DNA from: Yinghuangia soli
Lineage (GTDB): Bacteria; Actinomycetota; Actinomycetes; Streptomycetales; Streptomycetaceae
DNA length: 64,000 bases
Assembly: GCF_021502675.1 (NCBI RefSeq)
Contig: NZ_JAKFHA010000009.1
Coordinates: forward strand, 1 to 64,000
Reading direction: 5' to 3'
Shown one piece after another: positions 52,064 through 62,957 of the stretch. Both the position numbers and the translations under genes were made by a program. Numbering within the stretch: the first letter of the stretch is position 1; every line of letters begins with the position of its first letter. Below the pieces are notes generated by a model that worked only from the letters and a program-made list of their open reading frames with translations, did not search any database and was not told where the DNA came from.

Positions 52064-52180
52064 CCCGAATGGATGGCGTTTCTGCGCGTCGTCGCACATC
52101 GGTGCGAAAAGAGCGATGGGCCGATCGATAGTCGGTCTATCCGACTGACAGGCAGTCGGACGAACGCCGGGAGTCGCCTC

Positions 52181-52879
52181 GTGGCTGTCGTCTCCGTCCG
52201 TGTGGGGACCGCGTGCATCGTGGTCCTGGCGGTCGGTGCGGCCGTGCCGGAGACGGCGGTCGCGTCCGCCGAGCCCGGGGCCGGCGAGATGCGGGTGCAT
52301 GCGACGACCACGGCCTTCGGCGACACCCGCGACCACGCGAAGGTCTGCCGGTTCTACGTGGATGCGACCGGCTTCCCTGCGGGACGCAAGGTGCCATGGG
52401 CTGTCGTCCCGCAGCCCGGCACCGCGCTGATCGCGGGGAACGTCGAGGCCGCCGGAAGCGCGCGCACCACCGCGCGCGTCGGCGGCGAATCGGGCGCGGC
52501 GCTGTCGGGGCTGGTGGCGACCGCGGCCGACGGGGCCGGGCATTCGGGTCCGCTGGTCGTGGCCAACGGCGAGTACCGGCTGACGTGGCACGGCGAAGGG
52601 AAGTCCGGACAGGCGAAGCACAAGACATTCACCGTGTCGTGCGCGGCACTCGGCAGCCCGCCCGGCGGAAGCGGCGGAGGCATGGCTCGCTCGGTGGCCA
52701 TGGTCCGCGACGTATTCGGCAACCTGGTCCCGGCCGACGAATTCGGCACCGGGGCCGACAAAGACACAGCGCCCGACCCGGCGACGACCGCGACGGGGAT
52801 CGCGGTCGCGCTGGGCGCGCTGTTCATCGGCATCAGACTCCTGCGGCACGGCGGCGCCAAGCGCTCCGCCGACCGCTGA
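52181..52879 (+). CDS. Secreted, C-terminally anchored hypothetical protein
   Basis: A 232-residue exported protein: signal (VRVGTACIVVLAVGAAVPETAVASAEP), a beta-rich domain with one Cys pair (AKVCRFYVDATGFP and TVSCAALG), Gly/Ser linker and a C-terminal membrane segment (TATGIAVALGALFIGIRLL) with a basic tail (RHGGAKRSADR). No LPXTG motif. Similar secreted proteins precede class F sortase genes in actinomycetes. Start GTG 52181, GGGAG seven bases upstream. A low-complexity artefact region separates it from the sortase gene. Confidence 0.8.
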   Translation: MAVVSVRVGTACIVVLAVGAAVPETAVASAEPGAGEMRVHATTTAFGDTRDHAKVCRFYVDATGFPAGRKVPWAVVPQPGTALIAGNVEAAGSARTTARVGGESGAALSGLVATAADGAGHSGPLVVANGEYRLTWHGEGKSGQAKHKTFTVSCAALGSPPGGSGGGMARSVAMVRDVFGNLVPADEFGTGADKDTAPDPATTATGIAVALGALFIGIRLLRHGGAKRSADR

Positions 52880-53162: not shown

Positions 53163-54626
53163 GTGGCCGACAGCGGACGTAGGGCTCCGGCGCGCAAGGC
53201 CGCCCCGCCCGAATCCCGGGGCGTACGGCGCCGGGAAGCCGACGCGGAGGCGCGGTCGCCGGGATCGCGCGAGCGGCGCCGAGAGGAACCGCCCCGCTCC
53301 ACGAGTCCGACGCGATCGGCACGTCCGGCAGGGTCTGCACGTTCGGTAGGTCCGGCGCGTACGGACGGCGCCGAGTCCGGGCGGCGGGCGTCTTCGTCAT
53401 CGGAGAGGGCGCGATCCAAGGCCCCTGCGTCGCCCTCGTCGTCCAGACGGTCTGCCGAGGGCAGAAGACCGGATCCCGAGCGGCGTTCGCGTCCCCCATC
53501 GGCAGCGAAGCCCGCCCCGCGACGCAGCGCCGCGAAGCAGGGACCCAACACGGCCACCCGGATGCGACTGGAAGGCACCCGTGCGCGCGGCTCCGCATCG
53601 GAGCGCCGACGCCCCAGCGTCCGCCCGGTCGAATCGTCCAAGTCGCGGCATACCGCGCGCGTCAAGATCGACCCCCGCCGCGCCGGATCGCCGGACGCGG
53701 GCCGGGCCCGGACCGCGGTACGCAAGCGCACCACCGGAGGCCCGCCGGCACGTCCGCGTCCGAGACCCCGTCCCTCTGCCCGTACGAATCCCGCGGGCGC
53801 GCAGCCCAGGCAACTGACGAGACGCGGCCGCCTGTTCACCGTCTTCGCGGTGCTCACCACCATCCTCACCGGGATCGCGATCATGCAGGAAGGGCTCGAC
53901 TCCTCCTCACGCGACGCCGGCCGCCCCGCAGCCGCGACGAGCCCGGCCCCGTCCGCCAACTCGTCGCCTGCACCGACAGCGCAGGCCCCGGTCGCACCGG
54001 GACCGCCGGCAAAGTCGGCCGCCCCGGCACCCGCGCCACCAGCTTCACCAGCGGCGCCCGCTGCCGCCCCGGCCGCAGCCGCCGCGCCCGCAGCCGCCCC
54101 CGCCGGTGCAGTCGCCGTCCCGGTCGCCGCCCCCATCCCGTCCCCGACGGTCACCGCGCCGCCCCCGATGCCCCCGTCGCCGCCCCTCCTCATCGAGATC
54201 GCATCCATCGGCGTGCAGGCGAAGCTCGTACGCGTCGGCCTCACCGACAAGGGCTGGATCGACGCCCCGACCGACAAAGAGCGCAACCTGGCGGCCTGGT
54301 ACGACGGTTCGTCCACGCCCGGCGCCGAGGGCACCTCGGTGATCGTCGGCCACGTCGACGTCCCGACCGGCCCGGCCGTCTTCTACGACCTGGCCACGGT
54401 CCGCAAGGGCGCCGTCATCCGCGTCCCACGTGAAGACGGCAGCACCGCGGTATTCACCGTCTACGCCGTCCAGGTCTTCGGCAAGAAGGACTTCCCTGCG
54501 GAACGCGTATACGGCGGGACCGGCGTCCCCGAACTGAGAATCGTGACCGTCGGCGGCTCGTACGACAAACAAAACGGCTACACCGGCAACCTCGTCACCT
54601 TCGCCCGCCTCAGCGCCGTCGAATAG
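53163..54626 (+). CDS. Class F sortase homologue lacking catalytic Cys
   Basis: A 487-residue protein: 1-215 Arg/Ser/Pro-rich basic region, a membrane segment (LFTVFAVLTTILTGIAIM, about 222-242), a Pro/Ala linker, and a class F sortase fold (about 345-487): EIASIGVQAKLVRVGL, AAWYDGSSTPGAEGTSVIVGHVD (catalytic His397), VFYDLATVRKGAVIRVPRED, FPAERVYGGTG. At the catalytic site the usual ITCGG is VTVGG: Val463 replaces Cys, and the Arg expected in Y-R-D-N-VV is absent (YTGNLVTFA). The fold is intact but the enzyme should not form thioester bonds. Start GTG 53163 with GAAAGG upstream; ATG 53046 would pass through a less ordered region. Confidence 0.85.
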   Translation: MADSGRRAPARKAAPPESRGVRRREADAEARSPGSRERRREEPPRSTSPTRSARPAGSARSVGPARTDGAESGRRASSSSERARSKAPASPSSSRRSAEGRRPDPERRSRPPSAAKPAPRRSAAKQGPNTATRMRLEGTRARGSASERRRPSVRPVESSKSRHTARVKIDPRRAGSPDAGRARTAVRKRTTGGPPARPRPRPRPSARTNPAGAQPRQLTRRGRLFTVFAVLTTILTGIAIMQEGLDSSSRDAGRPAAATSPAPSANSSPAPTAQAPVAPGPPAKSAAPAPAPPASPAAPAAAPAAAAAPAAAPAGAVAVPVAAPIPSPTVTAPPPMPPSPPLLIEIASIGVQAKLVRVGLTDKGWIDAPTDKERNLAAWYDGSSTPGAEGTSVIVGHVDVPTGPAVFYDLATVRKGAVIRVPREDGSTAVFTVYAVQVFGKKDFPAERVYGGTGVPELRIVTVGGSYDKQNGYTGNLVTFARLSAVE

Positions 54627-54794: not shown

Positions 54795-56222
54795 CTAGAG
54801 CTGGCCGTCGGCCTCCAGGAGGGCCGAGCGGCGGCGGGTGCGGTACCAGAGGGCGCCGCTGCCGGCCATCAGGGCGGCGCCGAGGGAGCCGACCAGGCGC
54901 GGGTCGCTGAGGGCGCCGGTCTTTGCGGGGCCGCCGCCACCGCCGTGCGATCCGCCGGAGCTTCCGTCAGTGGAGCCGCCCGAGTCTCCGCCTGAGCCGC
55001 CCGTGTCACCGCCGGGTGCGGTGGTGGTCGGGGACGCCGTGGTCGGGCCGGTGGTCGGCGGGTCCGTCGTGGGTGGCGGTGTGGTGGGGGGAGGCGTGGT
55101 GGGTGGGGGAGTGGTCGGAGGCGGGGTCGTGGGCGGGGTCGTCGGGGTGCCGGTGACGATGATCGGCTGGCTGGCCGCCGCCTGTGACGTCTTGCCCTTC
55201 ACGTAGACCGTGTGCGGGCCCGCGGTCAGGGTCGAGGGCAGGGCCGCGGACTGTGTGGCGCTGCCGTCTGCCCCTGCAGTAAGCGTCTTCCAGGGTTTGG
55301 GAGTTCCGTCCGTGCCGGCGATCGTCAGGTCGATCTCCTCCTGGGCCTGGAAGCCGGTGAGCGTGACGGCGATCGGGTCACCCGGCTTCGCGCTGAGCGG
55401 GTCGAGGGCGACTGCGAAGTTCGCGGCCACGATGGTGGCCGTGGTCTGGACGGACGCCGCCGACTGGGCTCCCGTCACCACGATCCGGTACCGGCCGGTG
55501 GTCCAGGCAGCGGGTGGGGTGGCCGTGCCGATGATCTGGCCGCCGGAGTTGGTGGTCAGCGTGCCGAATACGACTGGTGGGGCGGTCGCGTCGGCCTCTG
55601 GGCGGGCAGCGACCGTGATCTGCTCGCCGGGCTTGAACCCTGTTACGTCGATCGTGGCTTCGGCGCCCGCCTTGATCTGCACCAGGTCGGCGCGGAATGC
55701 CGGGTGGTACACCGGCGGTTGGGTGATCTCCTCGGCCGTCCATGTCGTCCCGTTGATGCGCAGGTTGACGGCGGCCAGCGGCTGCGTCGCGCCCGCCGCG
55801 TCCAGGCATTGCACGCGCAGCTGCCAGACCGTCCCGGACGCCGGGTATACGCCCACGTAGTCGAAGAAGGGGATCTCCCCGTACGCCTCGCCCGGGTTCG
55901 GGATCCGGTCGGCGGGCAGCGGGTCGTCAGCGATGAGTGTGGGCAGCCCCTCGGGGCTCACCACCTCGTATCTCGCCGCTGCTGCATGCGATTCCGGGCA
56001 CGGCGTATCGGAGCGCCACTTCGCACCCGTGCCCTCGACCGCGGGAGGACCGAGCTGCGGGATCGACCCGGTGGTCGGCTCCAGGATCAACTTCGGTGCG
56101 GGCGGCTCGGGTTCGGCGTGCGCGGAGAGCGCCGGGGTGACCGCGGCCACCACGAGCACCGCCCCGGCGGCACCCAAGGCCCGGGTGGGCCAAGAGGATC
56201 TGGTCGGCAAGGCGGTCACCAC
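54795..56222 (-). CDS. Secreted wall-anchor-like protein
   Basis: A 475-residue exported protein: signal (AGAVLVVAAVTPALSAHA), an N-terminal domain with two Cys (SDTPCPESH, VQCLDAAG), two Ig-like domains (ATIDVTGFKPGEQITVAARPE, IAVTLTGFQAQEEIDLTIAG), a Pro/Thr repeat (TPPPTTPPPTT x4), a Gly/Ser segment and an anchor region: GPAKTGALSD, hydrophobic VGSLGAALMAGSGALWY, RTRRRS. The anchor resembles an LPXTG/LAXTG signal but with PAKTG. Start ATG 56222 overlaps the upstream stop. It follows three genes on the same strand. Confidence 0.85.
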   Translation of the reverse strand: MVTALPTRSSWPTRALGAAGAVLVVAAVTPALSAHAEPEPPAPKLILEPTTGSIPQLGPPAVEGTGAKWRSDTPCPESHAAAARYEVVSPEGLPTLIADDPLPADRIPNPGEAYGEIPFFDYVGVYPASGTVWQLRVQCLDAAGATQPLAAVNLRINGTTWTAEEITQPPVYHPAFRADLVQIKAGAEATIDVTGFKPGEQITVAARPEADATAPPVVFGTLTTNSGGQIIGTATPPAAWTTGRYRIVVTGAQSAASVQTTATIVAANFAVALDPLSAKPGDPIAVTLTGFQAQEEIDLTIAGTDGTPKPWKTLTAGADGSATQSAALPSTLTAGPHTVYVKGKTSQAAASQPIIVTGTPTTPPTTPPPTTPPPTTPPPTTPPPTTDPPTTGPTTASPTTTAPGGDTGGSGGDSGGSTDGSSGGSHGGGGGPAKTGALSDPRLVGSLGAALMAGSGALWYRTRRRSALLEADGQL

Positions 56223-62591: not shown

Positions 62592-62957
62592 GGGAGTTCC
62601 CTCTCTGGGACATCACAGGGATATCGAGGAAATGCCGGTGCTGCTGCGGAGCGTGGACCTCCGTCGCCGGAGCGACGCCGACAACACTCGCGGCCCGCGC
62701 ACCGGCCCGGCGTGACCGTGGCGGAAACGCTCGATGTCCCACATGTCCGGGGCGGAAACGGCCCGCCACCGGACGGAACGGGCAACGGAAGATGACGCGT
62801 TCATGTGCGGGAAGAAACGGCTGGGTGAGCACAACCACCCGGTACTGGACGGGAGTTCGGCGGACCTGTGAGGTGGTGTTCCGGTAGCTGCGCCAACCGG
62901 GCAGGCCGTCGCCCCGACATGGCCGGCCCGGACGACCGACGACCGACCGGAGTCGAC
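62592..62957. other. Divergent intergenic region
   Basis: Holds promoters for pstS and the divergent large gene. GGCGGAAACG occurs twice (near 62719 and 62750). No PHO-box (GTTCACC repeat) was found. Confidence 0.4.

Follow-up and report, generated by a model that had tools for sequence, protein, structure and literature searches.

Sortases normally attach proteins to the cell wall through a catalytic cysteine. We know of no physiological role for those of class F, and the locus described here encodes a homologue from which that cysteine is gone. The gene lies in a 64,000-nucleotide stretch of Yinghuangia soli DNA, hereafter the window, as an open reading frame at 53163-54626 on the forward strand. 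It encodes 487 residues if started at GTG, the start that we favour over ATG 53046, the first ATG, and ATG 53562. Its product matches the sortase profile PF04203 (1.2e-16; score 61.1 against a cut-off of 26.6), and its score of 182 bits (5.4e-54) against the NCBIfam class F profile NF033748 lies above the curated cut-off of 166 bits. For the sortase domain (54174-54623, forward strand), AlphaFold2, supplied with 42 homologues, predicted a sortase beta-barrel fold (pLDDT 90.6, pTM 0.89), and all 50 matches listed by Foldseek from the PDB for this model were sortases, with classes A, C, D and E represented. The model and its structural matches thus bear out the sortase fold proposed in an earlier, sequence-only reading of this DNA. 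A search of PDB sequences with the window protein returned no match at 0.001. The predicted N-terminal membrane anchor lies at 53829-53891 (forward strand; the RLFTVFAVLTTILTGIAIM region), its hydrophobicity judged by eye.

We aligned the window protein with 99 distinct homologous domains and compared the catalytic columns. Ninety-eight of the homologues carry His at the position of His397 of the window protein (54351-54353), and 98 carry Asn in the third catalytic column, as does the window protein (Asn476; 54588-54590). Only the nucleophile column is abnormal: it holds Cys in 98 of the 99 homologues, and the window gene reads GTC (Val463; 54549-54551) where they read TGC. The single homologue without Cys, L023, is another dead copy and is also the one altered at the His and Asn columns; a change from Cys to Val was seen in the window protein only. 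Val463 stands at the end of strand beta7, where active sortases carry their Cys. In the predicted model (domain numbering), the strands at residues 54-60 and 120-126 end with His and Val respectively, and the strand at 139-149 begins with Asn, which would place all three at the usual sites of sortase catalytic residues.

The loss of the catalytic Cys and the retention of His397, both noted in the sequence-only reading, were therefore confirmed by alignment to the class F family. Its further claim that the protein cannot form a thioester also stands: we checked the whole 487-residue sequence and found no Cys, aligned with the active site or elsewhere, so thioester formation is impossible. The same reading had counted a missing Arg as a second lesion. 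The class E enzyme SrtE1 does have Arg at the third position of its triad. Asn in place of Arg is, however, ordinary for class F, being family-wide in our alignment and reported in actinobacterial class F sortases (PMC6998099); we accordingly rejected the missing Arg as a lesion, and because the whole class is without it, its absence is of no use as evidence of inactivation. Judged by its residues, the window protein would be a class F sortase by descent but not a sortase by chemistry.

We then asked how widespread the change is. The window genome contains 13 PF04203 matches. Syntenic orthologues in the two other species of the genus that we compared (79% identity in G002, 66% in G001) both read TCGG and lie, like the window gene, next to the Pst-type cluster and the genes for surface proteins. 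TCGG is also kept by a paralogue in the window genome (C22; 66% identical), which is accompanied by a further copy of the upstream partner gene. The same Cys-to-Val change, sought in these relatives, was found in none; since both sister-species orthologues and the paralogue keep Cys, the loss appears private to the window species at the resolution available. Streptomycetaceae class F sortases of the NF033748 type, such as the C22 paralogue and L033 of Actinacidiphila oryziradicis (62%), share with the window protein the fold, the N-terminal anchor, the His, the third-position Asn and an adjacent anchored partner, but their nucleophile is Cys where the window protein has Val. Across 395 family genomes, a nucleotide pattern encoding LRx[IV]TCGGx[FY][DN] was present with its Cys in 344. 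Two matches had a codon not beginning with T at the Cys position, the window gene and a Pro variant in G101, in a survey limited at that position to TGY and to codons that do not begin with T. We discarded the G101 match as a candidate for another dead class F gene, because it is an FtsX-type permease. The window gene is thus the single true variant of the scanned type among the 395 genomes.

The N-terminal part of the protein is less securely defined. The sequence-only reading had described a basic extension of 215 residues, and an open frame of that length does run through 53163-53813 (forward strand); its product would be rich in Arg, Pro and Ser, with 59 Lys and Arg against 19 Asp and Glu, and presumably cytoplasmic. 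Upstream, high G+C keeps the frame open, and the coding signal is weak: codon-position GC is flat, with GC3 upstream of about 53.77 kb at 67-82% against 82-95% in the sortase domain. The start is likewise uncertain. GTG 53163 has a Shine-Dalgarno-like AGAAAGG nine bases ahead, and nothing of that kind precedes ATG 53562. In the G002 orthologue, a TTG with GGAGGT would yield an extension of 126 residues. We rejected a start at [MV]RLTRRGR, just ahead of the membrane segment, as a general one, because G002 and the paralogue have a GTC or GTA Val there and only G001 has ATG. The protein may have an N-terminal extension, a feature that is not confined to the dead copy. SrtE1 of Streptomyces coelicolor resembles the window protein in its sortase fold and, if the extension is real, in its cytoplasmic N-terminal tail, which is functionally important in that enzyme, but differs from it in having an active Cys and LAXTG substrates (PMC5148588).

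A published study proposed that the genes beside class F sortases may code for the substrates of these enzymes, though without a known pentapeptide, and deleting four class F genes together in Actinoplanes missouriensis left no visible phenotype (PMC13251363). Upstream of the window gene, at 52073-52879 on the forward strand (true start possibly downstream), lies a gene for a predicted secreted protein that ends in a membrane segment and a basic tail; we presume it to be the former substrate. Homologues of this partner stand beside both the orthologue in G002 and the paralogue at C22, with 43% and 39% identity respectively, and BLAST and HMM searches found none that was convincing in Streptomyces. 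At 52724-52738 (forward strand) the window partner reads LVPAD, within DVFGNLVPAD-EFGTG, against DVFGNLVPAGGADLGSG and DVFGNTVPAGGSDLGGG in the other partners. The orthologous and paralogous partners have LVPAG-G or TVPAG-G here, which suggests a putative sorting motif whose Gly has been lost. The register of this motif is ambiguous, as the NCBIfam GVDTG profile aligns GADLG, not LVPAG, in G002: read as LVPAG, an invariant Gly is lost, whereas read as GADLG, the window sequence ADEFG retains the last Gly. The window partner is thus present and anchored, with LVPAG changed to LVPAD in one of two possible registers, and the existence of two registers weakens motif loss as proof that sortase and partner decayed together.

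In Streptomyces, 79 class F loci include an anchored neighbour, and at 76 of them at least one such protein bears a Gly motif, 26-46 residues from its end. From 113 such neighbours we derived the pentapeptide G-V-[RKHN]-[GAT]-G, a candidate class F sorting signal that is related to the NCBIfam GVDTG sorting domain. Several partners of intact sortases score just below the cut-off of the GVDTG model, and the window partner is unscored by it. Neighbours of class F sortases in the set L033-L112 carry the pentapeptide followed by xGG[SAT], ahead of the C-terminal anchor.

Within the genus, an anchored protein that bears a Gly motif adjoins the sortase gene at all nine intact class F loci that we checked, versus neither of the two dead loci (Fisher p 0.018, for a motif defined post hoc and a small sample). 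The second dead locus is that of the Cys-less homologue L023 (also L031; G001:C46:23188-23634), in which His is replaced by Pro, Cys by Ser and Asn by Gly. Its homologue in the window genome (G000:C20) is intact, and the partner there ends in GVKAGSGG; in G001 a DNA alignment showed the partner-bearing stretch to be largely missing, and no partner gene was found at the locus. The two cases are alike in a lineage-specific catalytic loss within an open frame, accompanied by a changed partner (in G001, loss of the whole partner gene), and unlike in that the G001 gene belongs to a different orthologous group and has all three catalytic residues replaced. Read side by side, they are suggestive of a link, seen twice in the genus, between the death of a sortase and the change or loss of its partner. 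Natural inactivation coupled to the change or loss of a neighbour offers a route to naming sortase substrates and sorting motifs; here the comparison points to the adjacent anchored protein and, in Streptomyces, to a pentapeptide of the G-V-[RKHN]-[GAT]-G type.

We also looked for traces of selection in the sortase domain. Between the window gene and the G002 orthologue pN was 0.139 and pS 0.463, giving a pairwise dN/dS of about 0.2 by a hand-written NG86 calculation in which dS is near saturation. Polarised with four outgroups, 14 amino-acid changes fell on the window branch and 7 on the G002 branch, with 11 ambiguous, an excess that is not significant (p 0.19). At 58 columns conserved at 90% or more, the window protein departs 10 times, the orthologues 4 and 5 times and the paralogue 4 times, and conserved positions near Val463 are also altered (V123I, I124V and V140L). 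These figures fit a gene on which constraint is relaxed yet not absent, or one in which the loss is recent.

We favour, with a probability of roughly 0.6, the explanation that this is a class F sortase whose nucleophile was lost, probably recently, on the branch to this species, and that a dedicated sortase-substrate pair has gone out of use under relaxed selection. The change from Cys to Val would have precluded an acyl-enzyme and hence transpeptidation. Class F sortases here would be dedicated to the neighbouring protein with a C-terminal anchor; in the window species the pair would be disused, the partner's Gly motif being altered as well, and the gene would persist as an open frame under relaxed selection while the intact, closely related C22 pair probably covers the function. 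Such an account is in keeping with a Val unique among homologues, intact syntenic orthologues, departures from conserved columns about twice as frequent as in the orthologues, and the lack of a Gly-motif neighbour at both dead loci of the genus when every intact locus has one. Against it, the intact frame, the high GC3 of the domain and the low dN/dS fit retained function too, the excess of changes on the window branch falls short of significance, and the sorting motif can be read in two registers. Any residual role of the window protein would be non-covalent binding. The sequence-only reading had gone further and suggested a receptor or scaffold for surface proteins. A pseudo-sortase kept to bind sorting signals or lipid II, as a receptor, chaperone or decoy for surface proteins, would agree with the intact frame and predicted fold, the retained His and Asn, the dN/dS, and the persistence of non-catalytic sortase folds in this family, seen at two other loci of the window genome where a sortase fold lacking His and Cys is conserved (C88:65318, next to pstB, and C27:10284). 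The Val form nevertheless occurs in one species only, the sister orthologues being intact, the partner's Gly motif is altered and conserved columns near the active site are drifting; decay of the pair fits at least as well, and we regard retention for binding as unlikely, if worth keeping in mind. If true, it would make this a non-catalytic class F sortase, of which we found no report in the literature searched.

Other explanations seem less probable still. The convergent gene next to the sortase (54795-56222, reverse strand) encodes a surface protein with a C-terminal anchor, whose sorting signal also seems to be altered in the window species: LASTG and LAHTG in the sister species correspond to PAKTG here, a Pro codon (CCC; 54927-54929, reverse strand, coordinates approximate to one codon) replacing the Leu of LAXTG. 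The window sortase might once have processed this neighbour, with the change from Leu to Pro as a matching loss, but LAXTG signals belong to class E enzymes (PMC5148588) and four sortases of the window genome keep the class E pattern (GHR/AHR, TTC), which makes this improbable. That a sequencing or assembly error hides a true Cys is very improbable, even in a draft assembly of 91 contigs: TGC and GTC differ at two adjacent bases, so a single-base error cannot account for Val463, and nearby conserved positions are changed as well in a frame that is intact. Activity through another nucleophile or mechanism would make use of the retained His and Asn, but with no Cys in the protein and an inert Val in its place, and given that a characterised sortase loses its activity, wholly or in large part, when Ala replaces the active-site Cys (PMC13257024), we consider it extremely unlikely.

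Sortase folds without catalytic residues occur elsewhere in the same genome. Beginning 1.3 kb beyond the end of the window, G000:C88:65318-66220 (forward strand; L028:3319-4221) encodes a membrane protein of the sortase family, class E-like in type, from a site flanked by pstB and a PstS-like gene, with a PBP-like neighbour starting at window position 62868. Homologues of this PstB-linked protein are present in 27 of 61 family genomes, spanning 9 genera; the 24 that we fetched all stand beside pstB, and all are without the catalytic His (Lys or Arg being nearby) and the Cys. They make up a conserved family of pseudo-sortases with a link to phosphate ABC transport. Like the window protein they have a sortase-family domain without the catalytic Cys, but in them both His and Cys are gone across several genera, which is no private loss, and they are a stronger case than the window gene for a sortase fold used without catalysis. 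That the window protein is kept to recognise its partner or further surface proteins without a covalent bond, having evolved in parallel with at least two other Cys-less sortase-fold groups of this genome, strikes us as doubtful. G000:C27:10284-11270 (reverse strand; L013, L154) encodes a protein with a short N-terminal part, a single membrane segment and, outside the cytoplasm, a sortase-like domain that has neither His nor Cys; an orthologue is found at G001:C54:145100-145882 (reverse strand; L164). The C27 gene adjoins a gene for an ECF-type sigma factor, and its product resembles an anti-sigma factor whose sensor would be a pseudo-sortase.
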